Assembly: GCF_000186865.1 (NCBI RefSeq)
Contig: NW_008705579.1
Location: 62,001-126,000, forward strand
Reading direction: 5' to 3'
DNA from: Aureococcus anophagefferens
Lineage: Eukaryota; Sar; Pelagophyceae; Pelagomonadales; Pelagomonadaceae
DNA: 64,000 nucleotides
Each line of letters starts with the position of its first letter. Positions within the stretch are counted from its first letter, which is position 1. Positions 30,514 to 51,947 of the stretch are shown piece by piece. The notes under the pieces are model-generated. The model was not told where the DNA came from. It did not search any database and saw nothing but the letters and a program-made list of their open reading frames with translations. Made by a program: the position numbers and the translations under genes.

Positions 30514-33272
30514 CTACTTATACAGGTTGAGCGTGAACCCCTGGGGGTCGAGGCGGCCGCAGTCGCGGCGCGTGCCCACGTTGCCGGCGCCGTCGCTGCC
30601 CACGTAGCCCGCGAGGCACTGGCAGTGGCCCGTGGTGTAGTCGCAGACGCCGCGGTTGCCGCACTCGGCGCTCTCCTTCGTGCCGCGCTGCGTCTCCGTG
30701 ACGTTGTAGGCCGGCGTCGTCTCGAGCAGCGGCAGATCGCCGAGCTGCGAAATGAAGGTGATCTGGAGGCCGTCCTCGACGCCGTTGGACCCGTCGGCCA
30801 TCTCCCAGCCGACGCGGCAGGCCCGCGTCCCCGCACTCGCCGACACGGTCACGTCCTGGATCGTCGTCAGGTTCTCCAGCGCGGCCTCGACGGCGGCCAA
30901 AGACGCGTTCGCCACGATCGGCCGCGTCTCCTGGCCCCGGAAGGTGAAGGTGAAGGTCGACGGGTGGGACGCGTAGCAGCGCACGGTCTGGACCTCGGGC
31001 ACGCCCGGCGTGTGCACGTCGTCGCCGACGGGGCAGCGGCGCCGCGAGCAGTCGTAGCCCGTCCAGCCGCCCACAAAGTCCGGGTTCAGCACCGGCACCC
31101 CCGAGACCAGGCCCACGGGCCCGACGGCGGGCTGGTCGCCGTCCCGCGAGTCGCAGACGCACTTGTAGACGCGACGGCTGTCCCAGGTCGCCAGCGGGTT
31201 CTGCGTCGCCGCGCCGTAGCTCAGGCCCGCGTCGATCCCCGAGTACTGCGTCACCTCGGCGACGCGCCACATGGGCAAACACACCCCGTTGCCCGAGCAG
31301 TAGTCGCCGTCGGCGCCCGAGGGGCACAGCAGCTTCTCGCAGGCCTCGCCGCCGAAGCCCGACCGGCAGTCGCAGATGCCCGAGTTCCGCCTGGGCAGCA
31401 CAAGAGTGATTCAACGTCGCTTCAACGTGAGTGTTCCGCGCGCGCGCGTTCCGAAAAAAGCATCCACGCGTCGAGACCGTTCCGAGGGATGATCGCTCGT
31501 CCAAAGATCAGCCAAAACGAGTGGAAAACGGCCGAGATAGGAGCCTTTGAAGTTGGGAATTTCGCTCTCTTGTCCTGCCCCGAGTTCCGCTCGCACTCGC
31601 CCATGTTCGAGCACTCCGCCGCCGCGTGCGCGACCCCGCCGCCCTGGGGCTCGGCCCACCACGACGGCCCGAAGGGGCAGCGCCGGAGCATGCAGTCCGC
31701 GCCGTAGTACTCGTCGGCGCATTTGCAGGTGAAGGTCGAGTTGTCGCACACACCGCGCTCCGGACCGCCGCACTCCTTCCACGTCGCGCCGTCCTCGAAG
31801 TAGACCGCCGGGCAGCTCGTCGCGCGCGAGTAGGGCCAGCCGCAGTCGCCCCGGTCCCCCGGGCCGCCGTAGCCGTCGGAGGAGCGGTAGTCGTAGTCGA
31901 AGGGCGGCCGCAACAGCGTGTTGCACATGCACGTGCCCGTCGCGAAGTCGCACCAGCCGCGGTCGGAGCAGTAGACGTCCTCCTTCGTGCCCTTGTCCGC
32001 GCGCAACATGAGGTTGACGCGCATGCCGTTGGTCATGAAGTTCTGCAGGTTGCCGTAGGGCACGCGCTCCCGCAACGAATTGATGAGGGTCAGGTTGTAG
32101 ACGTTGCCGTAGGCGCCGCGGAACTCCACCGTCGTGTTCCGCCCGCCGTCGCGCCCGCCCGCGGACCCGAGCGGGTCGCAGACCGTCGAGCCCGAGACGT
32201 TGATCATCATGTCCCCGAAATCGTTGTCGACGCCCAAAGAAGACAACCCTCGTAACTCGCGCTCGACGTCCGCCGCCGTCGCGTTCCAGGTTAGCTTCGA
32301 AGTATACACATCGTCGTAGCCGAGGTAGAAGCCGCCCGTGCAGTTCCACTTCGTGTCGCAGGAGCCCTGGGGGCAGTGGAGGGACTGGCGCGTGACGAAG
32401 CGCACGGCGCCCGCCTCCGACCCCTCCGTCAAATCCAAATTCGTCGCCCGGAGCGCGGGCAGGGATCCGAACTCGGAGCGGAACTCGATCTCCGTCTCGA
32501 CGAAGGACGACGCCCCGCAGGGCTTGGCGCCCGTGGAGAAGGTGATCTGAACGTCGCCGATGGACGGTAAATCTTCGAGATACTGCTCGAGCTGGCCGTA
32601 GGGCACGTCGTAGGGGATCGCGCGCGTCCGTTCCCCTCTAAACTCGAGCGCGAAGGTGCCGCCGTCCGCGCGGCACTCGAGGCGCGCGACCTCGTTCTGC
32701 TGCCCCAGGGTCTCCGGGATGTCGCCCCGCGGGCACTCGACGCGCGAGCAGTTGAAGCCGCCGTAGCCCGCGTCGCAGAGGCAGCCCATCATCTTCTCGG
32801 CGTCCCACAGATCGTAGGACACGTTCGGCCGCACGAGCGTGCGCCCGTCCCACCCTCGGGCCGCGCCGCCCGTCGTCACGCAGCGGCCGTGGCCGCTGCA
32901 GGGCGTCCCGCCGTCGTCCGTCGGGCACGCGAGGCGCTCGCACGCGGGGCCCTCGAAGCCGTCGCGGCAGTCGCACTCGCCCGAGCCGTGGTCGCAGTAG
33001 CCCATGCCGCTGCACTCGACGTCGCCCGCGTGGGCCTCGTCCGTCGCCGTCGGGTAGTCCGCCCAGGCGACGCCGTGGGGGCAGGCCTTCATGCTGCAGT
33101 CCGGGCCCGTGTACCCGCTCATGCAGGTGCAGACGAAGGCGTCGTCGCTCGTCGTCCGCCCGTGGCCGCTGCAGTGGTGGTAGTCGATGGACGCGCACGA
33201 GGCGAGGGCGACGAGGCACAGGACGGCGCCGACGCGCGCCATCGCGACGATCGACGTCGAACGAGCTCTCAT
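30514..33272 (-). CDS. Secreted tenascin/EGF-repeat protein with an introner-derived intron
   Basis: Exons complement(31591-33272) and complement(30514-31390), 852 residues. The signal peptide is MARVGAVLCLVALASCASI; the in-frame ATG at 33242 is an alternative start to 33272. At least six EGF-like modules are seen (CSGHGRTT..CTCMSGYTGPDC; CSGMGYCDHGSGECDCRDGF; CLCDAGYGGFNC; CSDRGWCDFATGTCMC; CDYTTGHCQCLAGYVG). They are interspersed with repeated ~100-residue beta domains of the type FALEFRGERTRAIPYD...LEQYLEDL and FTFTFRGQETRPIV...VEAALENL. Similar EGF-plus-repeat proteins occur across stramenopiles; an adhesion or matrix role is inferred. The 200-nt intron is an introner element; splicing rebuilds the module ECERNSG|ICDCRSGFGG exactly. 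Unspliced, the frame is shifted. Confidence 0.85.
31391..31582 (-). mobile_element. Introner element (family 1, copy C)
   Basis: A 192-bp element in the coding orientation of its host gene, flanked by the 8-bp duplication GCGGAACT (minus strand; plus-strand 31383-31390 and 31583-31590). The imperfect terminal inverted repeat reads GGGCAGGACAAGAGAG at the left and GGGCAGCACAAGAGTG at the right (inverted). The intron is complement(31391-31590): donor GC from the upstream duplication, acceptor CAG at the element end. About 94% identical by eye to copy A. Confidence 0.92.
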
Positions 33273-33490
33273 CGGGCTGCCCCCATAAAGTGAGCGGACA
33301 AAATCGGCAGCCCCATGCGGCGTGCTGCCGCTGCGCGGCGCTCGGGGCCGCCGATTCGAGTAGGAGAGCCCGTGATGCCGGCAACGCCGGCGTCGGTCGC
33401 GTAGGGCTGCAAAATCGGCCACTTTCGCCGGGGTCGGCCATACCGTCCTCGACACAGCCTGGGCCTCGTCGACGCGCGCACACAGACACA

Positions 33491-34396
33491 TTACAGCGTC
33501 GTCTCGGAGAGGCGGCCCTGGCACGTCGACGTCGCGTCGACCCTCCACTTGCCGTGGCTCGAGACGAACTGCTGGAGGACGTACTTGTCGCCCCCGACGG
33601 GCGGCTCCGCGCGGTGCATGGCGTTGCCGTCCGCGCGGCCGCCGGCCTCGGGGACGAGGGACGGGAAGTGGAGCACGGCGGTGCCCCGCTTCGGCGCCAC
33701 GGCGACGGCGCCGCAGAACGCGTCCCACTTCGCGTCCTCGTAGAAGGGCGTCGTCGCGTCGTCGACGGGCGACCCGTCCGGGTACGCGGTCGCGTCGAAG
33801 GGCCCCGGCGCGTCGTAGAAGGACGCGCCGCCCGGTCCGCGGTGGATGCCGATCGTCGGGAAGATCGTGCGCCCGCCCTCGGCGACGTCGTTGAGGTACG
33901 CGAAGACCGTGCAGCTCACGTTGTGGTTCGGGTTATAAAACGCGGGCCAGCTGCCCTCGAGCGCGACGCCCGCGTCGTCGAAGTAGTCGCCGTCCGACGG
34001 CTCGTCGCCGCTCCAGGCGTCCGTGTGCAGGTCGAAGCGCTGGCCCGGCGCGTAGCGGCTCAGCTTCGTGCCCTGGAGCCGCTCCAAGGGCGCGGCCGCG
34101 AGGTCCGCGAGGCGCTCGCGCAGGGCCGGCACCTCGGCGTCGTCGCACACGACGCACGTGGACGTCCGCGCGAGGCCCTGGCCGACGCGGGCCGCGCCGT
34201 CGCCGGCGGCGCGGCCCGCGGCGTGCTTCGCGATCAACGCCTCGCACTCGGCGGCGCTCAGGAAGTCGTCGACGAGGAAGATGTAGGGCCGCTCGTGGAT
34301 GAGGCGCAGGCCCGGGTACTTGAGATTGATCTTGGCGAACAGCGGGCACGCTTCGTAGGCGCGCGTGTCGAGAGACCTCGGTGTAAAAGTGGCCAT
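33491..34396 (-). CDS. Prolyl 4-hydroxylase-type 2OG-Fe(II) oxygenase
   Basis: 301 residues from ATG 34396. The P4H-alpha catalytic pattern is complete: TSTCVV, LSRYAPGQRFDLHTDAW (His and Asp of the iron triad), TVFAYLNDVAEGGRTIFP, VAVAPKRGTAVLHFPS, NAMHRAEPPVGGDKYVLQQF (distal His and the Lys that binds 2-oxoglutarate). It hydroxylates proline in secretory or cytosolic substrates in the known family. No obvious signal peptide is visible in this frame (MATFTPRSLDTRAYEACPLF), so location is open. It is head-to-head with the giant IQ/WW gene, 140 bp apart. Confidence 0.88.
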   Translation of the reverse strand: MATFTPRSLDTRAYEACPLFAKINLKYPGLRLIHERPYIFLVDDFLSAAECEALIAKHAAGRAAGDGAARVGQGLARTSTCVVCDDAEVPALRERLADLAAAPLERLQGTKLSRYAPGQRFDLHTDAWSGDEPSDGDYFDDAGVALEGSWPAFYNPNHNVSCTVFAYLNDVAEGGRTIFPTIGIHRGPGGASFYDAPGPFDATAYPDGSPVDDATTPFYEDAKWDAFCGAVAVAPKRGTAVLHFPSLVPEAGGRADGNAMHRAEPPVGGDKYVLQQFVSSHGKWRVDATSTCQGRLSETTL

Positions 34397-34536
34397 GCCT
34401 TGCCACCGCGGCCGAAAGTTGCAGAAATCAAGCGACACACCGCGGTAGATCCTGCCGAAGGCAGCGCTCTTTGCCCGCGGGCAGCCGCGCGGCGCCGGTA
34501 GCAAGACCGCCTCGGCGGCGGCGGCCCGGACCGGCC
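34397..34536. promoter_or_regulatory. Divergent promoter region
   Basis: The 140 bp between the P4H (-) and IQ/WW (+) start codons must hold both promoters and 5' UTRs. No TATA or GTTGCAC motif seen; a CCGCGG/GCCGCGCGG GC-rich patch dominates. Confidence 0.4.
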
Positions 34537-37500
34537 ATGGTCAAGGAGGCGCGGCCGTCGTCGGCGGGCGGGCGGCGCAAGGGCCAGGTCAAGGCCTGGG
34601 AGCCCGAGCGGCCGAGCAGCGCGGACCGCATGAACGCGACGTGGGGCGGCAAGTCGCTGGGCCCGAGCGTCGCGTCCCTCGCGCGCGCGGAGATGGCCGC
34701 GCGGGAGAAGCGGGGCCTGAAGCAGGAGGTGCTCCACCAGCTCGCGTTGAAGGGCAACGCGTCCCTGAGCAGCGGCTCCAAGGTCGGGACGAGCCTGGGG
34801 CCGTCCGCGTCGTCCTTCTCCGACGAGGTCCGGTGGAAGCGCGCGCGCGAGGCGTCCTGGGCCGAGAACCTGACGTCGCGGGGCATCCCGGCCTACGACG
34901 CCGCGCGGGACAAGCACTGCAAGTTCTCCAAGTCGAGCGCCTTCAAGCGGTCGCCCTACGGCCGCGCGGCCGAGGCCGCGGCGGCGAAAGAACTCAAGCG
35001 CCTCGCGAAGCCGTCCGCGTCGAAGCAGCGGCACCCGACGCGGCGCAACTCGGACGTCAACGGCTTCGCCATGACGGCGCAGGCCTACGGCGAGGCGGCG
35101 CGGCGCGAGGTCGTGGCCATGTACAACCGCGCCGCGAAGGAGGTCACGCGGCGCGAGCTCGCGCTGGACCGCGTGTTGGACGAGTTCGACAAGCACAAGA
35201 CGGAGGATCTGGTGGACGGCGAGGGCCGCGACTTCCGGCCCCAGATCCGCCTGGCATCCCGGGAGCTGCGGGACCGCACGCTCGGCGCCGTCGAGGCCGT
35301 GCTCGACTGGCGGCGCGCCGTCGAGGACTTGGACGACGTCCGCGACGACGTCTCGGGCGCGCCGCCGCCCTTCCTCTGGGAGGGCCAGAACTACCTCGTG
35401 CGCCTCGCGTCCGCCGACGACGTCGAGCAGTTGCTGCTGAGCGTGCCCAAGTTCGGGCCGGGCGTCGGCTCCGACTTTGGGCTCGAGACGGTGCCCGTCA
35501 AGCGGAACCCGCTGCTCCTCGACGTCGACGTCGACGGGTTGGCCGAGGAGGTCGACGGCGACGACCTGCCGGCGGACGCGCCGCCGGGCGCCGCCGAGGA
35601 GCGCGCGGCGTCGACGATGCGGCGGTTGGAGCGGCTGCGGTGCCGCCGCGTCGCGCGCGCCGTCACCGCGGAGGAGCGCGCGACGGCTGCGGCCGCGTTG
35701 CGCGACGCCATCGGCGGCGAGACGCCGGCAAGCTCGCTCGCGGAGCAGCACACCGTGGACAAGACGCGCCTGGTCCTAAGCGAGAGCGAGCAGAAGCGGC
35801 TGCGGCCGCCGACGGTCGACCCCGCGGAGCTCGAAGCGCTCGGCCACGACTCGCGGCCTCCCTTACCAGTCGTCGCGACGTTCACCTGCCTCCACCTCGT
35901 CCTCCAGCCCGAGGTCATCTCGACGAACGGCCGGGGGCTGCCGGACGTGCACCGTTTGAGGAGTCGGCCCCTGCGCCACACGCTGCTGCGCGCGCCCCGG
36001 AAGCTCACGGCCCGTCTCAGCGCGTACGACCCGGGCCGGTGCCTGCCCCAGGAGGTGCTGGGCTTGCTCTGGCCCGTGCTCACGGCGGAGCGCTTCACGG
36101 CCGACGAGGTGCGGAGCCACTCCACGGCGGCGGGCGCCATCTTCGAGTGGATGCAGACGCTGGTGGTCTTCCAGTTCACGCGCGCCGCGGACGACAAGAT
36201 CGGCAAGGGCCCGCGCGAGGACACGAACACCCATTTGAGAACGAACGCGGCCCAGTTCGGGAACCGCTTGGGCGTCGCGCGGGGCCGCGCCGCCGGCGGC
36301 GCGCCCGAGTACGCGAACCGCGTCGAGCCGACGATCCGGCGGTTGATCGAGGGCGACGGCGCGAACCTTCGCGCCGCGGACTACGAGCCCCTGAGCGACG
36401 AGTCCTTCGGCGACGACTCGGCGCCGGAGACGGGCATCGGGTCGTCGAACCCCTTCGGGGACCGGAGCGGCCGCGGGGCCGCGTCGGTCGACGACTCGCG
36501 GACCAAAGCGCCCGGCGACGGCGAGGTCCGGTCCATGCTCAGCGAGCTCTGCCGCGACGTCGCGGCGCTGAAGAACGAGATGCTCAACGTGACGTCCGGC
36601 GGCGCGAGCGGCGCCCACGGCTACGCGTCGAAGCTCACGTCCTTCGGGACCATGGTCCGCGCGGCCGTCGACGCCGCGGGCGGCCAGTCGGGCGACGGCG
36701 CGGACGACCTGCAGCTCCGGGGCCCCCAGACGGCGACGGCGCGGGCCGCGGACGCCCACGCCGAGTCCGGCGCCCTCGTGACGACGCTGCTGTTCGCGTC
36801 GCGGGACTTTTCTTTAGGCGACCAGGTCGTGGAGCTGACGATCCACGCGGTCTACCGCGACGACCACGACTCCGCGGAGTACAAGCTGGGCCTCGTGTCG
36901 CCCGAGTACCTGCTGCTCCAGGTCGCGGACAAGGCGACGCACTTCGGGTGGCCCGCGCGGGCGCTGCCGGCCGTCGAGGTGGACCGCATCACGGGCTTCG
37001 CGCCGTCGGAGATCGCCGCGTTGCCCGGCGACGACGAGCGCCGCGGCGCATTGAAGCCGCTGCTGAAGATCCTGACGGCGATCTCCACGAAGCTCGGCAC
37101 GAACAAGCGCGGGCGGAAGAAGCGCAAGGGGTTGCTGAGCGCGGAGACGGACGTCGACGACCTCGAGGTCGTCGAAGCGGTCGCGAAGGACGAGGCGTCG
37201 GGCACGCTCGCGGGCCTCGCGGCGCGCGGCGCGGGCCCCGCCGCGGGCCACAAGCGCTGGCAGCAGCTCGCCGTGCCCGCCGTCAAGGACGGCGTCCTCG
37301 AGCGGTCCGAGCGCGTCATCAACTCCGTGCAGCTCGACGTCGTCCTCTCGCGGCCGCTCGGCCCGGCCGGCGACGCGGACTGCACCGTGTCGCCCGTGAC
37401 CATGGCGACGCCGACGCGCCTCCAGCTCCACGTGACGGCGGCGCCGACGGCGCGGGAGCGCGAGAACATCGACGCCCACGGCCTGGACCCCATCGAGGTC

Positions 37501-40500
37501 ATGCACCTCGACGCGTACGACAACGAGCTCCAGCTCCTCCTCGTGCACCAGCCGGGCCTCTACGAGCGCTCCCGAAGCCGCTGGGCCGCGCTCAACGCCG
37601 TCGCGTCCTGGATCGTGGCGCGCCTCAGGTTCGAGCGGCGCGCGCGCCAGTGGCACAAGGCGACGTCGGAGTCGCCGGACCCGCAGCTGAAGAACCGTTT
37701 GCTGTTGGACCGCGCGATCCCGCTGCCCCCCTCCATCGCCCAGCCGCCGCCGCTCCCGGCGCCCTGCGTCTTCACGGCCATGCAGGAGGGCGACACGCTC
37801 GTCGTCTCGCTCCAGGCCGCGGGGCCCGTGGGCGAAGCGCAGAAAGAAACGCCGTACGCGACCGTCGCGCTCCACATCGACGAGGCGCGCGCGCTCGCCG
37901 CGCCGCCGCGCAACGCGCCGCGCTGCGACAAGCACATGGGCATGCTCCAGTCCCTGCGGCAGCGCATCACCGTCGAGTGGCTCAAGGCCGACGCGCTGGA
38001 CTTCTTCGCGTGGCGCGGCGACGGCGACGCGCCGACGTCGCAGGGCTCCGCGGTGCTCCACGTGGACCGCGTCGTCTACCAGGAGGTGCGGCGCGTCTCC
38101 GGCGTGTCCCTGACGCTCCAGGCCGTCGTCCAGGGGCGGGATCTGCTCTTCCAGGCGGCGCTCGTGGGCCCGCCGCCCAAGGTCATCGGCGACGCGGCGC
38201 CCAAGGGCTCCGACGACGAGGACAGCGAAAACGAGGACTCCGAGGACGACGAGGGGCTCGCCCTCGTCCCCGCGGCGCCCCAGCGCCGGCGCAACCAGGC
38301 CGTCCGCGCGAAGAAGCCGCCGCCGCGCGCGGCGTCGCCGGGCTCGGGCGACGACGACGGGCCCAAGGCGCCGTCCTTCGACCTGACGCGCCTCATCCCC
38401 GAGCGGGAGATGGTCGCCCTCGTCGGGTCCGAGCTCGGCGAGTCGAAGCGGGCGCTCTTCTACCCGCACTACCGCGGCGCGCTCGCCGCGATCCTCGCGA
38501 CGAAGCTCAAGCTCGTGCAGAAGTCGGACAAGGCGCTGGAGCCCGGCGTCGACGTGCACCACGCCACGGCCCCGGGCCGGCGCTACGACCTCGAGACCAT
38601 GCTCGTCCACGAGAAGCACGTCCTGCCCGTGGGCGTCAACGGCTCCGCGAAGCGGCACCTCATCGGGTCGCTCAAGATCGACGACTCGACGACGCTCGAC
38701 GACGCGCGGCGCCTCATCGCCCTGGAGTTCGACGAGGAGGACGTGCCGCCCCACTTCCGCTTCGTCTACCGCAACGCGCCCTGCGCGAAGAAGCAGGAGA
38801 AGTACCGCTACGCGGTCGAGTGCCGGCCCGCGCTCGTTTTAGCCATGCGCCTCGGCGCGGACCTCAACGAGCGCGACGACGACAGCGACGAGGGCGGCGC
38901 GTCCAAGCGCAGGCGGCGGCGCAAGCGGGGCAAGAAGGTCAAGGTGCGCGGCGGCTACGACTGGGAGAACGAGTCGGACGACGAGCGCCGCGCGATGCGG
39001 CGGGAGCTCGCGCGCATGTCGTCGATCCTAGAGTCGGGCGGCACGGAGTCCATGGTCTTCGACGCGAGCCGCGAGAGCCTCGCCAAGGGCTCGGGGTCGA
39101 AGCGGCGGCGGAAGAAGCGGGGCCGGAGGAGCCGCATGCTCTCCAAGGTCCGCGGCGCGTTCCGGGGCCGCGACAAGGGCAAGAAGAAGGAGGAGTTCGT
39201 CGACGACGACGCCGCGCAGCCGGCCTTCGAGCCCGCGCTCGCGGACTCGACGCCGCCGCCGCTGGAGATGGTCGCGGTGCCCCTCGAGACGACGGCGTCG
39301 ACGAAGCAGGAGTCGCGGCTCGTGACCTTCAACGACGACCTCTTCCAGTTCGACATCACGTCCGCGGACCTCCTGCGCCTCGGCAGCCTCCACGGCCGCG
39401 ACTGGGCCATCGAGGCGCGCGAGGAGTGGGCGAAGGTCGCGGACGTGTCCGACGAGCTCGTCGACCGCGCGTTCGTCGACGACGCGGAGGAGCGGCGCCA
39501 GACCGGCGCCGAGGATCTGAGTCTCGGCTACGAGGACAACTGCGTGCCCATGCTCGGCACTGTCCTCGTCATCGCCGAACAATACGACTTCCACACCGCG
39601 GCGCCCAAGGAGCCCCAGAAGAAGAAGAACAAGCTCCCCGGCGAAAAGGCCAAGGAGAAGAAGGACGGCGAGAAGAAGGGGGCCGCGTCGAAGAAGGAGG
39701 AAAAGAAGGAGGACGAGGAGTCCATCGTGACCATCGCCGAGGGCACGGCCATCACGGAGCTGCCCGTGTACAAGATGATCCCGAAGGCGCTGGACATGCG
39801 GCCCAAGTGGCGCGTCGAGTTCGACGAGGGCCGCGTCAAGCCCCTCAAGGACTTCCACCGCAGCGACCTGAGCGCGACGAACTTCCGCGTGCCCCTGCGC
39901 TACGCGCACCTCGAGCGCTTGGTCGTCGACGTGCGGTCGCGCGCGCGGCAGATCCACATGCAGCGGATCCACTATTTCGAATTGGTGAACCCGGACCATC
40001 TGGTGGACGAGGTCTTCCACATGCTCTGCCAGTGGTACCCCCACAGCGACGGCGTCGACGGCGCCAAGTGGGCCAAGTTCGCGCGCGAGATGACGCTCGT
40101 GCCGAACATCACGGACCCCGTGCGCGCGGCCCAGGTCGACATCGCCTACAAGCGCCAGTTCAAGTCGTCCGACGGCAAGATCCAGAAGGGCGGTCGGTTG
40201 GACCCCGCGGGGCTCAAGGAGGCGTTGATCGAGATCTCGTTCATCCGCTTCCCCATATGGCAGGACCCGGAGAAGGAGGCCAAGGAGGAGCGGGCCAAGG
40301 CCGAGGAGGAGGCGCGGAAGAAGGCCGAGGAGGAGGACGTCGAGGACGCCGTCGAGGAGCCCATTTTACATATTGAGCCCAAGGTCGAGCAGCACGACGA
40401 CCTGAGTCTGGAGGGCGCGCTCGCGGGCCCCGAGGACGCGTCGCTCGTCACGGAGGACGAGGGCGTCGAGACGGCCGAGGGCATCCACATCAACACGGCC

Positions 40501-43500
40501 GACGCGCTCCACCACCGCCAGGAGGAGGCCGTGGACCCGGAGTGGCTCCGCGACGACACGCTCATGCACCTGCTGCTGGAGCACGTCATCATGATCCCGG
40601 AGGTGAACAAGCGCGCGTGGCGCGAGGCCAAGACGCTGGCCATGCTCGACGAGGGCGAGCGCCAGTCCGCGGCGATCCGCATCCAGGCGCTCCACCGCAT
40701 GCGCTGGCAGCGCGCGGACTACCTCGTGCACCTGCACGCGATCATCCGCATGGAGGCGTACGGGCGGCGGCGCCTCTTCCGCAAGTTCTACAACGACCGG
40801 CTGCACTACCTGAGCGTGTGCCGCTTGTACCGGTACCGCGCGTCGGCGGCGTTCCGGCTCCAGGCCTGGTACCGCTACTGCGCCATCTCCCGGGACTACC
40901 GCGAGCGCGTCATGGCCGCGAAGCGCGAGCACGAGGAGCGGTGCCGCCTGCGGCGCCTGGAGCAGCACGAGGCCTACCTCGTGCGGAAGCGGGCGACGGT
41001 CTTTCGACGGTGCAAGTTCGTCAACGGTACTTTGGTGTTCACGCGGATCACGCGGCTCGACCCGTCGCGGGAGATGGCCGTGCTCGACTACGGCCTGAAG
41101 CTGGAGGTCTACGTGCCCCAGACCCAGGAGACGTTCACGTTCCGCATGAGCGATTTGGAGGTGCGCCTGAGCATCGAGGCGGCCATCGGCGTCGACGGGC
41201 TGAGCGGCGACGAGATCCTCGATTCCAAAAACATCTCGACGATCGCGGATCGTCTATTGGTGCGCGTCATCAACCAGCGGCCCATCGTCATCTTCACGCG
41301 GCGGGGCCACAGCGAGCGCGGCCGGCAGGTGCTGCGGCGGGGCAAGATGGTCGACGGCCAGGTCTACGTCGTGTCCTGCTTCCACAGCGACGACGAGATC
41401 GTCTTCCACGCGTACAACTACAAGAGCTGCGAGACGCTGCGGACGTCCATCACGACCAAGTTCGTCAAGGAGTGGCTCACGAAGGACGAGGAGACGAAGC
41501 AGAACAAGGCGCGGTCCGAGCGGCTCGCGGCGATCGTCGAGGCGAAGCGCGTGCTGCGCCTGCAGGCGACGGGCGTCGACGTCGAGCCCGAGGAACTGGA
41601 GAAGTCGAAGAAGATCGTCGAGGAGGCGAACATAGAAGCGGCGAAGGAGGCGGCGAAGCGGCCGGAGACGCCCGAGTCGCCGAAGCGCCAGCTGACGACG
41701 GGCAAGGACGACGAGGCCAAGGCCGACGGCGGCGGCGACGGCGACGCGGCCGCCGACGGCGGCGACGCGGGCCACCACGACGACGACAAGAAGAAGCCGC
41801 GCCTCGAGCACCCCTTCTTCCTCCCGGAGAATCTCATCAAGTTGCTCGAGTGGCTCATGGAGCGGCTGCGGGTCGTCGTCTACCAGCGCGCGGGCGAGCA
41901 GTCGAAGCGCGAGCGCCTGGTGCTCGAGTACGAGCTCGAGGAGGTGCAGATGGAGCAGGCGGCCATGAGCCTCCAGGGCATGTGGAAGATGCTCCAGGCC
42001 ATGAAGCGCATCCGCAAGATGCTGCGGACGAACTGGGAGAAGCGCTGGGACCGCGACGCGGGCTGCTGGTTTTACGTGAACCTCCGTGCCGAAACCAAAT
42101 CTTCAACCCGACTTCAATGTGAGCGTATTCGAACGATTTGGACCAGACTTTTTCACTGTGCTTCGAGAACTCGACGAGAGCGATCGATCCGTCCAAAAAT
42201 CAGCCGAATCGACTTCGATGTGACCGAGCTAGAGAATTCTCAAGTTTGGTCAGGACCACCCAAACCAGTGGTTGAATTCGGCACAGGTGAACCTCATGAC
42301 GGGCGAGATGTCGTGGGAGAAGCCGCGCATGCTCGGCGCGCTGGACCTGCCGGACCCGCCGGACGAGTGGCGCACGATGTACGACGAGTTCGAGGAGCTC
42401 TTCTACATGAACCCCTACACGGGCCAGACGTCCTGGCTCTCCGTCGACGACGCCGCGCGCGCGCTCCAGAAGAGCTACCGCGCCAAGGCCGCGCGCGACT
42501 ACGGCACGCCGTCCTTCGAGGACATCGTCAAGGCGTTGCGCATGCAGCGCGAGGTCGAGGAGAAGTACGAGGAGCACCCGGACCGGCTGAGCTCCATGGT
42601 GAACTTCGGGCTGCTCCTCGCGACGCAGCGCTTCGACGTGCCGGGCGCGCGGAAGCTGTACAAGGCGGCCATGGAGGTGAGCCCCGAGAACCCCGTGCTC
42701 CTGCGGGCCTACGGGATCTTCCTCCTGGCCGTGCTCGAGGCGCCGCGGCTCGTCGTGTTCCGCAAGGCGCTGGACATGTTCAAGAACGCGGAGCTGCGCG
42801 ACGCGGGCCGCGAGCGGTTCAAGCTCGCGGAGGAGTCCATGTTCCACTGGGCCGTCGTCGCCCAGCGCGACAACCCGCTGGCCCTGCTCAACTACGCGCT
42901 CGTGCAGCAGTGCCTCGTGCGCGACCTCGCGCGCGCGGAGCGCTTCTACCACCGCGCGCTCGGCGCGCTGACGGACGACGACCCCGCGCGCGACAACGTC
43001 GTGGAGAACTTCGAGCTCTACGAGGTCGAGCGGCTGCCGGGCGGCGCCTTCCACGACGACCAGCCGTCCATCACGGTCGTGCGCAACTCGAAGATCGCCG
43101 AGGAGCGGCCCGAGTGGGGCGAGTGGGGCCGCTACAGCCACGAGAACGAGCTCCGGCCCAAGGCCGTCTTCTACTTCTGGCTCAACCCCATCACGAAGCG
43201 CGCGTCCTGGTCCGACCCGGACTGGCCCCTGGCCTACCAGCAGCGCATCGCGCGGTCCCAGCTCATCGGCGAGAAGCAGGGCTGGGAGCAGTACTGGGAC
43301 CCGCGGCTCGACGCGGAGTTCTACTACAACGTCATGGACCAGACGCTGACCTGCGAGGACCCCGTCGGCGGCCTCGGCCAGACGCCGCCGGCCCAGGAGT
43401 ACGCGGCCATCGCGCCGGACGCGCACGGCGCCGCGCCCCCGCGCGACCCCCACCTGTCGGCCGCGCTGTCCGCGCAGACGACGCCGAACCTCCTCCTCGA

Positions 43501-43510
43501 GGCGAGCTAG
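34537..43510 (+). CDS. Giant IQ-motif / WW-domain protein
   Basis: Exons 34537-42075 and 42287-43510; 2920 residues. Residues ~100-330 form a domain also found at the start of the neighbouring gene at 45013 (GIPAYDAARDKHC, FLWEGQNYLVRLA, VKRNPLLLDV). A possible ubiquitin-like segment lies near residue 1390 (LDDARRLIALEFDEEDVPP). Residues ~1690-1740 are a Lys/Glu tract. IQ motifs at ~2045-2115 (AIRIQALHRMRWQRADYL, AFRLQAWYRYCAISRDY) suggest calmodulin or myosin-light-chain binding. WW modules follow: NWEKRWDRDAGCWFYVN|LMTGEMSWEKP, split by the introner; FYMNPYTGQTSW; FYFWLNPITKRASW; and a weaker FYYNVMDQT. TPR-like helices (LARAERFYHRALGAL) lie between. I infer a large cytoskeletal or axoneme-like scaffold. 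Its stop codon overlaps that of the convergent GT31 gene by 4 bp. Confidence 0.8.
42084..42286 (+). mobile_element. Introner element (family 2, copy D), inverted relative
   Basis: A 203-bp element flanked by GTGAACCT duplications (42076-42083 and 42287-42294). Termini are CCGTGCCGAAACC and (inverted) CTGTGCCGAATTC. The intron is 42076-42286 (211 nt, phase 0): donor GT from the duplication, acceptor GGCACAG at the element end. It shares GTCCAAAAATCAGCCGAA and a CTTCAAYGTGAGYGT block with the reverse complement of family 1, so it is related but inserted in the opposite orientation. Confidence 0.9.
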
Positions 43511-44910
43511 CGCGTAACGAGGTCGAGGAGCGGCAGGGTCGCGTCGGGCGCGTAGGCGGGCCGGAACCCGAGGGTCCAGTCCCGCGGCGCGCGCGGCGCC
43601 GCGGCGTCGCAGACGCTCCGCAGCGCGGCCGCGATGGCCGCGCACTCGCCCGCGGGCAGGCGGAGCGCGGGCTGCGCGCAGGCCGCGCCCGCGGCGCGCG
43701 CCGCCGACGCCTCGCAGGCCGCGGCGGTCTCCCGGACGGGGTCCGCGAGCGTGAAGCGCACGGCCGCGCCGTCGACGTCCGCCTCGACGGCGAGGAGGTC
43801 GTCGACCCGGGACCAGGACGCGGGCGCGAGGCCCACGGGCGCGCCCCCGAGGGCCTCGCCGCTGTGGATGCGCTCGAACTCGGCGTCGGTCTGGACGCCG
43901 TTGACCGCGAGGGACCCGTGGCCGAGGCGCGCCGCGTGCGGCCCGCGCGACGGCAGGTCGTGGAACCGCGGCTCGTCCAAAAAGTCGACGGCGAGCGGGT
44001 GGAGCAGGAGCCCCAGGTACTGGTCGTCGCACCAGAAGGCGTCGCGCACCCAGCCGCCCTTGGCGCCCGCGGGCCGGCCGCTGCCGCCGTCGGCCGCGGA
44101 TCGAATCCCAAAGCCCACGGTGTCGTCCAAGACGGCGAGCGCCGCCGCGACGCGCCGGGGCAGGACGACGGCGAAGCCCCGCGGGTACGTCAGCCCCCGC
44201 AGCACCGTGGCGTTGGCGCTGAAGGCGCCGAGGACGCCGCGGTCGCCTCGCGGCTCGTAGAGCAGCGAGAAGCAGAGCCGGTCCGGGAACAGGTAGACGT
44301 CGTCCTCGACGCGCACGAAGTGCGTCGCGGGCGACGCCGCGAAGTAGCGCAGGGAATACAGCAGCTTCGCGCTCACGTTCGTCGCGGCGTCGACGAGGCC
44401 GGGCGCGCGGACGACGTCGCCGGCGGTCGCGTTCTCGGCTCTAAGAGCGTCTTCCGCCTCGAGCGGCGGGGCGCCGACGAAGAAGCGGACGGCGACGCTC
44501 GCGCGGCCGCCGCTCAGGCCGTGCGTCGCCGCCGCGCGCCGGCACCAGCTCCCGCGGATCGCCGCGCGGCGCCGCGCGTTCGTCGCCGCCGAAGGCACGG
44601 CGACGAGCGCGCGGACCGCGGCGCCGCGGAAGTCGCCGGGGCAGCCGGGCGCCGCCTCCGCCGGCGGCGCCAGGAGCTCGACGAGCAGCGCCGCGAGGCA
44701 GGAGCTCTCGCGGGGCGCCTCGGCGTCGCGGCACGCCGGCGACCCCGGCGCGAGGGCCAGCCCGTTGGCGCCGATCGTGTCCGCGGCGGCGCGCCAGACG
44801 TCGCCGCCGTCGACGGCGCCGGACCGCGCCTCGCCGTCGATGCGCACCTCGAGGATCCGCTCCGCTCTGATGCAGAGGAGCGCGAGGGCTGCCCATTGCG
44901 CGCGGCCCAT
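43507..44910 (-). CDS. GT31-family beta-1,3-galactosyltransferase-like
   Basis: 467 residues from ATG 44910. GT31 landmarks: ARRRAAIRGSWC (the R..IR.TW motif), VRFFVGA, SAKLLYSLRYFAASPATHFV followed by RVEDDVYLF (the DxD-like metal/UDP-sugar site), and TYPRGFAVVLPRRVAAAL. The N-terminus has a short hydrophobic stretch (WAALALLCIRAE) that could be a Golgi signal anchor or signal peptide. Family members extend glycans in the Golgi. The terminal TAG lies in a CTAG shared with the opposite gene's TAG. It is divergent from the EF-hand gene over 102 bp. Confidence 0.78.
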   Translation of the reverse strand: MGRAQWAALALLCIRAERILEVRIDGEARSGAVDGGDVWRAAADTIGANGLALAPGSPACRDAEAPRESSCLAALLVELLAPPAEAAPGCPGDFRGAAVRALVAVPSAATNARRRAAIRGSWCRRAAATHGLSGGRASVAVRFFVGAPPLEAEDALRAENATAGDVVRAPGLVDAATNVSAKLLYSLRYFAASPATHFVRVEDDVYLFPDRLCFSLLYEPRGDRGVLGAFSANATVLRGLTYPRGFAVVLPRRVAAALAVLDDTVGFGIRSAADGGSGRPAGAKGGWVRDAFWCDDQYLGLLLHPLAVDFLDEPRFHDLPSRGPHAARLGHGSLAVNGVQTDAEFERIHSGEALGGAPVGLAPASWSRVDDLLAVEADVDGAAVRFTLADPVRETAAACEASAARAAGAACAQPALRLPAGECAAIAAALRSVCDAAAPRAPRDWTLGFRPAYAPDATLPLLDLVTR

Positions 44911-45012
44911 CGTGCATCAAGCCAAAGAAGTCGGCATTGTAGACATTGTATCGTGTGTAGACAGCGCGCGTTGGAAGAGCTTGGGCTGTGTCCGGCAGCC
45001 CGGCGACCGACG
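44911..45012. promoter_or_regulatory. Divergent promoter region
   Basis: 102 bp separate the GT31 (-) and EF-hand-array (+) start codons. It contains an AT-richer block with a repeated element, TTGTAGACATTGTATCGTGT followed by GTAGACAG. No TATA box is evident. Confidence 0.4.
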
Positions 45013-48000
45013 ATGGACCCGGCGATGCGGGAGGCGACGGTCGCCGTGCAGACCGCGCGGCGCGGCCGGTCGCAGGAGAAGCAGATGACCATGGAGGCCA
45101 AGGAGAAGGGTTTCAACAACCGGGCCCCGCTCTGGGAGCGGCGCATCCCCGTCTACGACGCGCTGCGCGACCCCTACTGCCGCATGTTCCAGGGCCCCGA
45201 CGCCGCCGCGCCGCAGCTCCGGGCCGGCGGCGAGCCGGGCGACGACTTCGCCGGCGGCGGTGCGATCCCAGGCGCCGCGGGCTTCTCGTCCGTGGCCGCC
45301 GCGTTCGACTTCGAGCACCACGCGGGCACGGACCCGGCGAGCGAGCTGCTCGTATTAAAGGCGATCCTGAACCGGGAGGCGTTGCTGTCGCGGCTCGAGG
45401 TGCTGGCCGAGGATTTGGTGCGCCGCGCGCACCGCGCGTGGGCTTTACGGGAAGCGCCGCCGCCGCTCGACGCGCCGCAGCGGCGCGTGGCCGTGGACCT
45501 CATGTCCAAGCTCCGGGACGCGACGCTGGGCGTCTGCGAGGCCATCGCGCACTGGCGGTCCGCGTCGGCGGCGCTGGCCGCGGAGGTCGCGCGCGAGGAG
45601 AGCGGCTTCGCGCCGGAGAGCTACGAGACGGGCGGCTTGGAGCACGCGTTCCTATGGCACGGGCGCAACTACGCGCTGAAGATGGCCGTGTCCGACATGG
45701 ACTTTGTCGGCGCCATCGAGCCCCTCGCGGAGGCTTTGGGCGTCCCGTCGGCGAAGATGCGGCGGAACCCGCTGATGCTGCCGCGGACGTTGGACGAGGC
45801 GCGCGCGGACGGCGCCGGGTCGCCCCTCGGCGGCGCGCCCGAGGAGGACGAATTGGCGACGGACGCGCCCGAGGACCCGCGGCGGCGCGAGAAGCGGCGC
45901 TTGGAGGCGGCGGAGCGCCTCCTGCTCGACGAGGAGCGCCTCGAGGCCGCGCTGCGGCAGGAGATGGTCTTGGCGGGCGCGCCGCCGGAGGTCGTATCGG
46001 AGTCGCCGCCGCGGCGCGGGTCGCTGCCGGCGATCCCGGCCCAGGAGACGAGCCAGGGCGGCCACCTGCGGGGCATGGCGGCCTTCGCGGCGGGCGCGGT
46101 CGGCGAGACGACGTGGGCCGGCGGCGCGGTAGCCGCGCGCTTCGGCGCGCTGCCGCCCGGCCCGCCGGCGCCGGCGACGTTGAAATCCTCCGCCGACGCC
46201 GGCTGGGGCCCGCGGAAGCACGAGCTCGTCACCTGGTTCGACGAGGCCCAGGAGCAGCTGAAAAATTTACAGACCAAGGCCGCGTTCGGCGACGCGGGCC
46301 TCGCGCCCAAGACCCAGGCCCTCCTCCGCGCGGCCGCCTCGACGAAGCGCCGCGCCAAGCCCAAGCAGCTCAAGCCCCTCAAGGCGTCCGTCTCGACGCA
46401 GCCGTCCGTCGCGACCGCGGACAGCGGCCACCCGTACATCAAGGAGGCGACGTCCGCGAACTACAGCTTGGAGCGGTCCGCGCCCCACGCGGAGCCCAAG
46501 CCCATCAAGCGCAAGCCCCGGCGCGGCAAGAAGAAGGGCGTCGCCGCGGCGACGCCGACGAAGTTCCGCCCCGGCCGCGCGACGTTCGGCGACGATGTGG
46601 TCGCGGCGCCGTCGCCCGCGGGCTACCTCGCGTCCGCCGCGCCGTCGCCCGCGCGGGCCCCCGGCGCCACGCCGGCGGCGCTCGAGTGCGCGCGGGCCGC
46701 GCGCGACTTCGCGGAGACCGCCGCGGGCCACGTCCTCCCGTCGGACCTGTCCGTGCTCGCGGATCTCGACGCGCCGACCGAGGGCCTGGCGCTCATCGCC
46801 GCGGCGACGCTGACGTTGATCGACGGCGGCGAGGGCGTGCCCAGCGACGTGCGCTGGCCGACCTTCGTCGCCCTCGTCGACGGCGACGCGGCGGGCACGG
46901 CGTCGAAGCTGCGGTCGCTCGATCCCGAGAGCGTCGCGGCGTTCAAGCGCCGCGCGCTGCACCGCTTCCTCGACGCGGCGAACCGGGAGGCGCGCCACTG
47001 GAAGGCCCTACCGTCGCCGCCGGCCGTCGCCGCGGCGAAGAAGCTCGACGGCTGGGTCGGCTGCGCGCTCGCGGCCGCGGACGCGTGCGCCGCCGCCGTC
47101 GCCGCCGCGACGGGCGCGGAGCCGCCGGCCGAGTGCGACGAGGCCGCCGCCGACGCCCTGGACACGGCGGCGATCTGCTGCCGCCGGGCGCGCGGCGCGG
47201 CGCCGAAGCGCAAGAAGAAGAAGAAGGCGCCCGCGGGCGGCGGCGCCAAGGCGGGCGTCGACCTCAAGCGGCGCCACTCCGCGCGGCTCGCCAAGGACGA
47301 GATCCTCGTGACCGTGCTGCGCGAGGACCTGGGCCCGGACCCCGGCTCGACGTCTTCGGCGGACTCGCCCTGGCTCGTGACCATCTTCAAGCGCAAGGGC
47401 GGCGGCTTCGACCAGGGCGGGACAAGAGAGCGAAATTCCCAACTTCAAAGGCTCCGATCTCGGCCGTTTTCCACTCGTTTCGGCTGATTTTTGGACGAGC
47501 GATCATCTCTCGGAACGGTCTCGACGCATGGATGCCTTTTCCGGAACGCGCGCGCGCGGCACACTCACGTTGAAGCGACGTTGAATCACTCTTTTCCTGC
47601 CCAGGCTTCGAGGCGCGCGCGTACCACCCGGGCACGTCCGTGGAGTGCTCGCTGCGCGTCGCCGACGAGGAGGCGCCGCGGGGCTGCGACCTGCGGACCT
47701 GGGCCACGGACGGCCTACCCTTCGCGCTCGACATGTACCGCCGCGGCGGCTCGGAGCTGCCCCGGCTCCGCCTCGGCCCGCCGGGCGCCACGGGCAAGGG
47801 CAAGAAGACCAAGGGCGGCGCCAGGGGCGCCAAGCGGGGCAGCGCCGGCGGCGCCTACGCCGAGGCGAGCGACGCGGACCACGTGGAGCGCGCCATCGCG
47901 GCCATCTCCGCGGGGAAGGACGACGTCCGCGGGCTGCTCGCGCTGCTGCCCCAGGAGCTGTTGGACTACCTCGAGTCCGACGCCTTCGAGGAGGAGTGCT

Positions 48001-51000
48001 GGGCGCGCTACGACGCTTTGGACGCGGACGGCAACGGCACGCTGAGCGCCGACGAGCTCATCCCCGTCGTCGCGGAGTTGGCGGGCGCGCGCGACGAGCT
48101 GTCGGTGTCCGTCGCGCGCTGCGAGACGCTCGTGCGCACCTTCGACCGCGGCGACAAGGGCGCCGTGGACCGCGCGGAGTTCGCGACGCTCTGCCGCTAC
48201 GTCATCACGGTCGCGTTCCTGCGGTCGCGCGAGGCCGCGCGCGTCGACTCGATTCTGGGCGCGCTCCGCCACAAGGGCGACGTCGAGGCCATCTTCGACA
48301 AGCTCCCCGAGGGTTTAAGGGCGGAGCTGACGTCCGACGCCTTCCGCCGCAAGTCGCTCGAGCTTTTTGAAGCTTTGGACGCGGACGGCGACGGCGTGCT
48401 CCAGTCGTCGGAGCTCCCGCCCTTGGTCGCGGAGCTGAGCGGCACGCACGCGTCGGCCATCACGGCGGACCAGTGCGCGGAGCTCACGAAGCTCTACGCG
48501 ACGGGCGAGGGCGGCATCGACCGGGCCGACTTCGTGAACTTCGCGGCCTACGCGCGCATCGTCGCCTATTTGGAGAGTTTGAAGGACCAGCTCCGCGACG
48601 ACGACGAGCGCCGCGTCGAGTCGCTGCTGAACATGCTGCGCGCGGGCAAGGAGAACCTGGACGCCGTGCTGGACGCCCTGCCCGGCGACTTCGCGGCCTA
48701 CGTGACGTCCAACGAGTTCCTGGACGCCTGCATGGACCGCTTCGACGCGCTCGACGCGGACGGCAACGGGTCGCTGTCGCCGGACGAGCTCTGGCCCGTC
48801 GTCGTCGACATGTCCGGGGCCAACGACCTGACGAACATCACGCTGGACATGTGCGAGCGGCTGAGCCAGCTCTTCGACGAGGACGGCGACGGGACCATCG
48901 ACCGCGGCGAGTTCGTGCTCTTCAGGGCAGCACAAGAGAGCGAAATTCCCAACTTCAAAGGCTCCGATCTCGGCCATTTTCCACTCGTTTCGGCTGATTT
49001 TTGGACGAGCGATCATCTCTCGGAACGGTTTCGAAGCGTGGATGTGTTTTCCGTAACGCGCGGCGCGCGGAACACTCACGTTGAAGCGACGTTGAATCTC
49101 TCTTGTCCTGCCCAGGTGCTCTTCAGCCAGTTCGTCATGGCCGTCGACTTCCTCGAGACCGAGGCGAACCGGGCCGACGACACCGAGGCCGTCGAGGATC
49201 TTTTGGCGAAGCTCAAGGAGGGCCAGCGCTACCTCGCCGACGTTGTGGACGCGCTGCCGGACCAGCTGACGGGCTACCTCACGTCCGACGACTTCGTGGA
49301 CCGGTGCATGGCCGACTTCGACGCGCTCGACGCCGACGGCAACGGGTGCCTGACGCCCGACGAGCTCTGGCCCGTCATCGTGAATTTGGCGCAGACGCCC
49401 GACGACGTGAACATCACCATGGACCAGTGCGAGGACCTGAGCCGGACCTTCGACGCGAACGGCGACGGCGTCATCGACCGGGGCGAGTTCGTCGCGTTCT
49501 CCCAGTTCGTCATGGCCATGGACTACCTCGAGAACGAGGCCAACGCCGCCGAGGACACGATGCGCATCGAGGACCTGCTCGCGAAGCTCCGCGAGGGCCA
49601 GAAGTACCTCGGCGAGGTCGTCGCGTCGCTGCCCGACCAGCTCACGGAGTACCTGACGGGCGACGACTTCATCGAGCGGTGCATGGCGGAGTTCGACGCG
49701 CTGGACGCCGACGGCAACGGGTGCCTCACGCCCGACGAGCTCTGGCCTTTGATCGTGTCGCTCGCGCAGACGCCCGACGACGTCAACATCACCATGGAGC
49801 ACTGCGAGGCGCTGAGCCGCACCTTCGACGCGAACGGCGACGGCGTCATCGACCGGGGGGAGTTCGTCGCGTTCTCCCAGTTCGTCATGGCCATGAACTA
49901 CCTCGAGGACCAGCGGAACGCGGCGGCCGAGGACGACGACTTCCGCGTGGACGCGCTGCTGGCCCGGCTCCGCGAGGGCAAGGAGCACCTCGACGAGGTC
50001 ATCCGGGCCATGCCCGAGGACCTCGTGGCCTACCTGACGTCGACGGAGTTCGTCAACGGCTGCATGGCGCGCTTCGGGGAGCTCGACGCGGACGGCAACG
50101 GGCGCCTGACGCCCGACGAGCTCTGGCCGATTCTGGTGTCCCTCGCGGGGACGCGCGACGAGTTCTCCATCACGATGGACCACTGCGAGACGCTGGGCGC
50201 CTACTTCGACACGGACGGCGACGGGTCCATCGACCGGGGCGAGTTCGTCGCGTTCTCGCAGTTCGTCATGGCCATGAACTACCTCGAGATGGAGGCGGCG
50301 CAGCGGGCCCAGGCCGAGGAGCTCCGGCTCCGGGACGCGCGGGGCTTCGTCGCCTTCGTGCGGGAGCGCTGCGCGGACGTGCCCGCGCTGCTCTCGGACC
50401 TCCCGGAGGCGCTCGTGGGCTACCTCGGCAGCGACCAGTTCGCCGCCGAGGCCGCGGCCAAGTACGACGCCCTGGACGCCGACGGCAACGGCGCGCTGAC
50501 GCCCGACGAGCTCGCGCCGCTGATCGTGGACCTCGCGGCGAACGAGGCGAGCCTCCGGGACGTCGCCGTGAGCCTCGACGAGTGCCTCGAGTTCGCGGAT
50601 TTGTTCGACGGCGACGGCAAGGGCTACGTGACCCGCGGCGAGTTCGTCACGCTCTGCCAGTTCAGTTTCGGCGCCGCGTGGCTCAAGGGCGCGGAGGCCG
50701 CGCGCGTCGAAGAGACGCTGGCGACGCTCCGCGCGAACGCGCGCCGCGCGGACGAGCTGCTGCCCAAGCTCCCCGCGGAGGTGTCGGCCTACCTCACGTC
50801 CGACGCCTTCCGGGCCAAGTGCGACGCCGAGTTCGGCAAGCTCGACGCGGACGGCAACGGCGCGCTGTCGCCGGACGAGCTCTGGCCGTCCATCATGGAG
50901 CTCGCGGGTCTGAGAGATGATCTCGTGGTGGAGCCGGAGCACTGCGAGGACCTCGCGCGCATGTTCGACGCCGACGGCAACGGCGTGCTGGACCGCCGCG

Positions 51001-51947
51001 AGTTCTGCGACTTCGCGATCTTCGTCTTCGCGGTCAAGTACCTCGAGCAGCTCAAGGCCCAGCTCGACGCGGCGCTCGACGGCTCGAGCGCCGTGCGCAT
51101 GATCGACGCGGGGAAGCCGCGCAATCTGTACGCCGACAAGCGCCGCGTGTCCGCGCTGCTGTCGACCGTCGAGACGAACCTCGCGAACATCGGCTCGGTG
51201 ATCGCGGAGCTCCCGGCGGATTTGGTGGACTTTCTGTACGCGCCGTCGTTCAAGGAGGACGCCGAGGCCCAGTTCGACGCGCTCGACGCCGACGGGGCGG
51301 GCTTCCTGAAGCCGGACCAGCTCGCGCCCGTGATCGTGGCTTTGGCCCAGTCGCGCGACGATTTGGCCGTGGAGCCGCACCACTGCGAGCGGCTCTGCGC
51401 GAACTTCGCGACGACGAAGCCGGGGCTGGTCACCAAAGCGGAGTTCATCGGCATGTCCCAGTTCATCCTCGCGACGACGTACCTCTACGTCGCGGAATCC
51501 GCGCGCGTCGACGGCCTCCTCGACTCGCTCAAGGCGGGCAAGGGCGCGCTGGAGACGCTCATCCAGACGCTCCCCGAGGACTTGATGGACCGGCTGAGCG
51601 CCCAGGCCTTTGTGGAGGACTGCGACCTGCGCTTCGCGGCGCTCGACGCGGACGGCAACGGCACGCTGGACGCGAAGGAGTTGTTGCCCCTCGTCGTCGA
51701 GCTCACGCAGGCGCACCACGCCGTGTCCGTGACGCCGGACCACTGCGAGGCCCTCGTGGCCATCTTCGACACGGACGGCAACGGCGTCATCGACAAGAAG
51801 GAGTTCGTCGAGTTCACGCAGTACGTCGTCATCCACGCGCACGCGACGGCGACGCGGAACGACCTCGCGGCGACCTTCGACGACGCGGCCTTCGACGCGG
51901 CCGTCGACATCGTCGGCACCCACGACGTCGTGTCCAGCGACGAGTAG
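45013..51947 (+). CDS. Ten-repeat, twenty-EF-hand protein with two introner introns
   Basis: Exons 45013-47404, 47605-48914 and 49116-51947; 2177 residues. Residues ~40-330 carry the domain shared with the gene at 34537 (RIPVYDALRDPYC, FLWHGRNYALKMA, MRRNPLMLP). The middle is Lys/Ala/Pro-rich, then a beta-rich segment (DEILVTVLREDLG, PWLVTIFKRKGG|FEARAYHPG) is reconnected by splicing. From about 47900, ten ~120-residue units follow, each with a helix of the type LPxxLxxYLxSDxF, one EF-hand (ALDADGNGxLxPDEL) and a second EF-hand (FDxxGDGxIDRGEF). The second loops of units 1, 2 and 9 are degenerate. I infer a Ca2+-buffering or Ca2+-responsive scaffold. The intron phases (1 and 0) match exactly across both element insertions. 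Confidence 0.85.
47413..47604 (+). mobile_element. Introner element (family 1, copy A)
   Basis: A 192-bp element; duplications GCTTCGAC (47405-47412) and GCTTCGAG (47605-47612), 7 of 8 matching. Left end CAGGGCGGGACAAGAGAG; right end TTTTCCTGCCCAG. The intron is 47405-47604 (200 nt, phase 1): GC donor from the duplication, CAG acceptor from the element. It is the only join that connects the two large open frames of this gene. Confidence 0.92.
47900..51880 (+). repeat. Ten tandem ~360-440-bp EF-hand-pair coding repeats
   Basis: The ALDADGNG codons recur near 48013, 48374, 48757, 49323, 49695, 50079, 50468, 50838, 51280 and 51637. Units 3-6 are the most alike (CMAxFDALDADGNGCLTPDE), suggesting recent internal duplication; units 1, 2, 9 and 10 are more diverged. 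Confidence 0.9.
48923..49115 (+). mobile_element. Introner element (family 1, copy B), in-frame
   Basis: A 193-bp element; perfect duplications GTGCTCTT (48915-48922 and 49116-49123), matching for three further bases. The intron is 48915-49115 (201 nt, phase 0): GT donor from the duplication, CCCAG acceptor from the element. It sits inside an EF-hand unit; splicing gives IDRGEF|VLFSQFVMAV, matching sister repeats. Being a multiple of three and stop-free, retention would add 67 residues. About 93% identical by eye to copy A. Confidence 0.93.

Follow-up and report, generated by a model that had tools for sequence, protein, structure and literature searches.

The window, a stretch of 64,000 nucleotides from Aureococcus anophagefferens, contains three closely related elements of about 192 bp and a more distant fourth one, each flanked by an 8-bp duplication (Table 1). 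Element 3 lies in a long gene with tandem EF-hand-like repeats (47927-51827; families D4, D5, and D7). Element 2 is located just upstream of this gene and perhaps belongs to it. The first-pass annotation had described three ~192-bp elements, about 93-94% identical by eye, whose upstream flanking duplication supplies the splice donor as its first two bases. Direct reading confirmed the positions of all three, with lengths of 192-193 bp, and alignment gave pairwise identities of 93.8, 92.2, and 93.8% over 192 aligned bases, i.e. 92-94%. The duplications were found again at all three elements, with the single mismatch in element 2, and GC, GC, and GT were read as the donors of elements 1-3. The 16-mer ACAAGAGAGCGAAATT occurs three times in the window with at most 3 mismatches, compared with a mean of 0.09 in 100 shuffles.

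Table 1. Candidate introner elements and their flanking duplications, numbered by position in the window.
Feature	Positions	Strand	Description
Introner element 1	31391..31582	-	192 bp; start CGGGGCAGGACAAG, end TTGTGCTGCCCAG (acceptor AG)
Element 1 upstream duplication	31583..31590	-	GCGGAACT; GC donor source
Element 1 downstream duplication	31383..31390	-	GCGGAACT; first 3' exon bases
Introner element 2	47413..47604	+	192 bp; CAGGGCGGGACAAG...TTTTCCTGCCCAG
Element 2 upstream duplication	47405..47412	+	GCTTCGAC; GC donor source
Element 2 downstream duplication	47605..47612	+	GCTTCGAG; 1 mismatch (7/8 vs upstream copy)
Introner element 3	48923..49115	+	193 bp; CAGGGCAGCACAAG...TTGTCCTGCCCAG
Element 3 upstream duplication	48915..48922	+	GTGCTCTT; GT donor source
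Element 3 downstream duplication	49116..49123	+	GTGCTCTT
Fourth element, second introner family	42084..42286	+	203 bp; CCGTGCCGAAACC...TTCGGCACAG
Fourth element upstream duplication	42076..42083	+	GTGAACCT; GT donor source
Fourth element downstream duplication	42287..42294	+	GTGAACCT

The window was scanned for exact duplications of octamers beginning with GY, 60-420 bases apart and with AG before the second copy. The scan gave 57 matches on the plus strand and 89 on the minus strand, most of which are chance matches or coding repeats (without inverted ends, or GC-rich coding repeats). Ranking by inverted ends placed elements 1 and 3 at the top (12/14); element 2 was missed because its duplication has a mismatch. 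The fourth element has inverted ends at 11/14 and lies within a stretch of 49% GC. A match at 13198-13302 on the minus strand, with inverted ends at 11/14, was set aside; it sits in an 89% GC coding repeat. A run of N at 12651-13018 adjoins GC-rich coding-like repeats, and a GC-rich repeat with a 12-base period at 14481-15476 would be Pro/Thr-rich if coding. The body of the fourth element shares 50-53% identity with elements 1-3, on the opposite strand. The alignment score was 130, compared with a mean of 56 in shuffles (sd 9, largest 93) and 85 for the other strand. Judged by these alignments, the fourth element is a distant homologue of the first family in reverse orientation (mirror type). 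The best 40 matches listed for it in the genome all have 92-100% identity.

Full-length matches were counted in the source assembly (49.05 Mb, 86 contigs) by exact end motifs. Among the A- or T-left copies, 675 have left CAGGGC and right AG (AG-right), 360 have left CTGGGC and no right AG (AG-left), and 8 have left CTGGGC and right AG ('both'); left CAGGGC without right AG ('neither') has 0 matches genome-wide. For left CGGGGC, the count covered copies without right AG and likewise gave 0 genome-wide. The reversed control patterns gave 0 matches for every end-motif count. The 'both' and AG-left counts include a few double counts (two such pairs among the AG-left rows listed), and a pair of the 8 'both' matches, each 197 bases in length, may themselves be second readings of this kind. 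The 675, 360, and 8 matches represent many similar introns at different sites, as expected for introners. Neighbouring introners were also observed (L058 and L078): the pair at C2:567563-567754 and 567928-568116 is separated by 173 bases, and the pair at C1:2490559-2490744 and 2490804-2490995 by 59 bases.

A sample of 98 copies, consisting of 90 loci plus those of the window, was analysed. The sample is not random; the loci are the best 30 of the 40 element-1 matches listed, the first 30 of 382 places, and the first 30 of 447. It contains 66 forward and 32 mirror copies, a share fixed by the sampling choice, and the shifted-end copies L041 and L057 were assigned by rule. Nine left ends without a partner were excluded when the 98 copies were defined. 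The mismatch rate was obtained from 94 of the 98 copies, the coding context from 96 (two have short or masked flanks), the end covariation from 97, and the folding from 92; column conservation covers 55 of the 66 forward and 25 of the 32 mirror copies (length 192 only).

The flanking octamers were tabulated in this genome-wide sample, along the lines that the first-pass annotation had proposed. The two octamers of a copy agree at no fewer than 6 of 8 bases in 94/98 (8/8 in 78, 7/8 in 12, and 6/8 in 4). The annotation had named copies that lack 8-bp duplications and lie equally often outside genes as evidence against its reading; the octamer matches and the single coding frame kept in 87/96 copies in the spliceable orientation speak against such a pattern. 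A target site duplication of fixed length (8 bp) is as expected for a MITE. The donor dinucleotide, which opens the upstream octamer, is GC in 51, GT in 43, GA in 1, CC in 2, and CT in 1 of the 98 copies. The proposal that the target octamer must begin with GT or GC is thus borne out in 94/98. The copies with neither GY nor GA (L025, L043, and L041) have gained or lost 1-2 bases at the boundary, as judged by eye, and in all three the change adjoins a duplication that itself contains GC or GT. The coding frame is kept in L035, which has the GA donor and the duplication GAGCGGCT. Genome-wide, 19 copies have a non-G base at duplication position 1, compared with at least 675 copies that have the same left end.

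The dinucleotide frequencies in the neighbouring exons are 0.041 for GT, 0.164 for GC, 0.069 for GA, and 0.100 for GG. Relative to these frequencies, the donor yields are 10.8, 3.2, 0.15, and 0, respectively. The yield per available site is therefore about 1 : 0.29 : 0.01 for GT : GC : GA (98 copies), which provides a ranking of donors by natural insertions. Positions +3 to +8 mostly track the local coding background. In GT donors, +3 is C in 60% (background 59%) and +5 is G in 21% (background 27%). Three deviations, all uncorrected for the number of positions, are T at +6 of GT donors (9/43, 21% vs 9% background), G at +3 of GC donors (34/51, 67% vs 50%), and C at +8 of GC donors (63% vs 39%). 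The first two both lean toward the usual U1-pairing consensus. Since +3 to +8 largely follow the coding background, the GY pair carries most of the donor information, and the further positions add weakly at best.

Coding context was assessed with a codon model. After training on three long ORFs of the window, it found the correct frame in 35/35 overlapping tiles of a held-out EF-hand gene stretch. The splice-sense strand reads best in 94/96 upstream and 93/96 downstream exons, and the best coding reading is on the predicted splice strand in 92/96 copies. After leaving out the duplication and the element, one sense frame is kept in 87/96 copies (forward 61/65, mirror 26/31). At random window positions in random orientation, 39.4% of 5,927 keep the frame, the window including the training ORFs. 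The nine copies without a single sense frame are three with a shifted boundary (L025, L043, and L057) and six ambiguous ones. This frame continuity in the coding sense supports the earlier introner reading, and an acceptor borne by the element and a donor drawn from the duplicated octamer also held up across the genome-wide sample. From these data, we infer that the elements are spliced.

Domain and homologue searches gave further information on the individual junctions. After removal of 31391-31590, the EGF_2 domain (PF07974) spans junction 1 with 36.6 bits in the spliced form scanned (cut-off 22.1). After removal of 42076-42286, the WW domain (PF00397) scores 51.1 bits in two stretches, the best of which crosses the junction. 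The unspliced form scores 21.5 bits (cut-off 26.9) in one stretch cut at the element; part of the drop reflects a second WW lost downstream. Exact removal of the element thus restores a genic frame in 87/96 copies and at two domain-spanning junctions. The public protein cluster P0001, which has 43 members and a longest contig of 1,005 bases, crosses junction 1 without the element, and is continuous through it with 99% identity over 67% of the query. P0005, a relative of the WW gene with 70% identity over 59% of the query, crosses the 42-kb junction without the element. P0001 and P0005 represent either spliced transcripts or empty alleles. The element-2 junction gave no homologue in the protein search and no Pfam match. 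Element 3 and its duplication together are 201 bp, in frame and open if retained; hence the frame continuity of this element proves nothing, and the EF-hand scores barely change with its presence.

Comparison of the two ends showed that the family has two mirror forms, in which the acceptor AG lies at either inverted-repeat end, as decided by position 2. When read on the body strand, the acceptor is on the right as GCCCAG, or on the left as CTGGGC (GCCCAG on the other strand). The first-pass statement that the element ends in its acceptor therefore holds for the three elements of the window, but not for the whole family. With independent ends, the marginal totals of these counts would predict about 241 'both' and 233 'neither' copies, whereas 8 and 0 were seen. 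Seventeen repeat positions were compared between the ends of 97 copies, with shuffles that ignore relatedness. The ends match beyond the shuffles at position 7 (87 vs 81), position 9 (72 vs 48), and position 11 (74 vs 52); in the mirror form alone (31 copies), positions 9 and 11 match in 29 vs 19 and 27 vs 16. At position 2, the ends match in 1 copy, compared with 33 in shuffles. The elements thus have the terminal inverted repeats of a MITE, with ends that covary at positions 7, 9, and 11 and are opposed at position 2. The 42-kb copy follows the same one-end rule with a different repeat (CCGTGCC / GGCACAG). L091 and L092, the two of the 8 'both' copies that were examined, have coding sense in the reading with the GT donor. 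A tree built without the end columns requires 7 changes of the acceptor end (bootstrap 6-8), and its well-supported branches force 3. The AU test did not reject a single clade (p 0.116), so that repeated switching of the acceptor end is only suggested.

Folding was predicted for 92 introns, including exon flanks of 20 bases. In these predictions, the inverted repeats form a stem, with mean pairing of 0.84 in forward and 0.93 in mirror copies. The acceptor A has an unpaired probability of 0.90 (forward) and 0.87 (mirror), and the acceptor G of only 0.43 and 0.30. When sense-side position 2 was changed to T in silico, the acceptor A became paired (unpaired 0.03 and 0.02); it stays free with A, C, or G at this position. 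The folding thus predicts that T is rare as the sense-left base and that the sense-right base is always A, a prediction identical to the one-end rule.

Age and placement of the copies were also considered. In 94 copies, the upstream and downstream duplications diverge at 2.7% of sites; an even split would assign about 1.3% to each. The recent insertion proposed in the first-pass annotation agrees with the high identity (92-94%), and has to be read with caution given this divergence. With an even split, about 9 of the 675 copies would have lost the acceptor A if it were unconstrained; none has. Coding sequence makes up about 0.74 of the window and 0.64-0.66 at 400-1,300 bases from the elements, and GY occurs at about 0.205 of positions. 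Random insertion followed by purging of unspliceable genic copies would leave about one fifth in coding sense, because about 0.74 is coding, half lies in sense, and about 0.205 is GY; 87/96 was seen. By this estimate, insertion would be strongly directed toward genes, or else copies in non-coding DNA would disappear. That almost only spliceable copies are left is presumably due to selection, to a bias of insertion, or to a combination of the two.

Introner elements of ~200 bp in Aureococcus anophagefferens were reportedly established by Huff, Zilberman and Roy (2016, Nature). The present elements are like them in length (~200 bp), direct repeats, terminal inverted repeats, and co-opted splice site; they differ in that GC donors are the majority (51/98). 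The 8-bp duplications and CAGGG-type ends resemble those of the hAT superfamily, including hAT-type MITEs. The differences are that the present acceptor tip is CCCAG, in place of the CCCTG expected from the other end, and that searches of the genome for PF05699 and for repeat-like ends found no transposase or autonomous partner. The hAT dimerisation domain (PF05699) has 0 matches in this genome and none in the control genomes either. Nineteen candidates for an autonomous partner, with repeat-like ends and other sequence, were dropped, since the reversed control gave 20. Spread to viruses or prokaryote assemblies was looked for with a 25-base core of the body, which gave 0 exact matches in both viral_contigs and genome_contigs, from which near records were possibly omitted.

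Aureococcus introners are cited in passages of PMC9481584 and PMC9860276, and PMC9481584 gives a characteristic introner length of ~210 bp. In the passages of Gozashti et al. 2022 (PMC9860276) on Symbiodinium (Fig. 2B), the element bears the 3' splice site and the duplication the 5' splice site. The present family shares this division; its duplications are 8 bp, whereas those of Symbiodinium are 4 bp. The same passages report GC and GA donors and an enrichment of introners in genes in 161/175 genomes. Fig. 2F describes an Aureococcus sp. family 4 with an 8-bp duplication; as described there, this family brings its own donor and acceptor and lengthens the mRNA by 12 bp, whereas the predicted excision in the present family adds nothing. 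The methods allow 'opposite-orientation' similarity, and no AG-end rule was met in these passages. Intron-end inverted repeats in Amoebophrya were proposed to form a hairpin joining the exon borders, according to part of PMC7789003. The present family is similar in its inverted repeats at the intron ends; Amoebophrya has non-canonical splice sites and direct repeats of 3-5 nt in that account, in contrast to GY-AG and 8 bp here. Part of PMC12768974 describes 69 candidate introners in mirusviruses. An acceptor choice between two ends was not found in the titles and abstract openings searched, and the rule may be in print. The basic introner trick is already known; what may be new is the strictness of the one-end rule.

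Taken together, the elements are almost certainly introners, i.e. short non-autonomous DNA transposons with terminal inverted repeats and an 8-bp duplication, which are predicted to be removed as introns. Their anatomy, copy number, duplications, coding-sense placement, frame continuity, and one-end rule are shown by the data. Insertion into a coding exon would duplicate 8 bp, and the element would then leave the pre-mRNA as an intron. The intron would start at base 1 of the upstream duplication (host GT or GC) and extend to the AG ending the element, and the original reading frame would thus be restored exactly. The AG would be the inverted-repeat tip whose position 2 differs from the other end, and would set the strand on which the element is habitable. 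A transposase acting in trans presumably mobilises the elements. An alternative is that ordinary MITEs landed in genes, with the AG and the GT or GC being coincidental and the genes broken or the element translated. The MITE-like anatomy and the open, in-frame element 3 would agree with this. It is very improbable in view of the coding-sense placement with frame continuity (87/96), the acceptor A kept in 675 A-left copies and lost in 0, and the octamers starting with GT or GC (94/98). Spread through RNA, in which an excised intron enters mRNA by reverse splicing and is then copied back, was proposed for fungal introner-like elements (PMC9860276), and would explain the genic, sense-only placement without selection. 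New introns would then be expected to carry over the initial 8 nt of their source. Instead, their first 8 nt match the new site rather than a common source (78/98 perfect), and the inverted repeats agree between the ends of each copy, as for a DNA transposon. The absence of target duplications and terminal inverted repeats that marks the fungal RNA type is not seen here; both are present. A reverse-splicing origin was therefore rejected as scarcely credible.

The one-end rule itself is open to two explanations. The introner may be two-headed with a structural switch, a tentative model derived from the predicted folding. The inverted repeats would pair in the pre-mRNA, and the stem would bring the donor and the acceptor together, so that the donor would require little beyond GT or GC. 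An unmatched base at repeat position 2 would leave the acceptor A unpaired at the stem foot. The pyrimidine-rich repeat is common to both ends; a change at this position would therefore move the acceptor to the opposite end and flip the habitable strand. Such a switch would explain the single AG end in all but 8 of the ~1,043 counted copies. The acceptor G, mostly paired in real copies, counts against it, as do the weak preferences of the donors at GT +6 and GC +3; L091 and L092, in coding sense, indicate that a paired acceptor A is rare, not fatal. Alternatively, the rule might reflect a transposase chemistry that requires a CTGGG end in combination with a C(A/G/C)GGG end. Unlike ends are common among transposons. 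This explanation concerns the one-end rule alone and is compatible with the introner reading. The 675/0/8/360 count pattern agrees with it, as do the two readable 'both' copies in coding sense, in which a matched position 2 permits genic retention. It leaves unexplained why the AG end faces the gene sense (92/96) and why no A-left copy has lost its A since insertion, and seems on balance unlikely.

In summary, the bulk origin of new introns has been a question for a long time, with introners as the best living example. A natural experiment on donor use and acceptor-end choice is available in this genome. The few copies outside the coding sense raise the question of strong gene targeting versus loss of unspliceable copies. 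A one-base rule in ~1,000 copies may couple the end structure of a transposon to splice-site exposure. The elements are of a known kind, and their sharp regularity allows a direct test of how transposon ends are linked to the choice of splice site.
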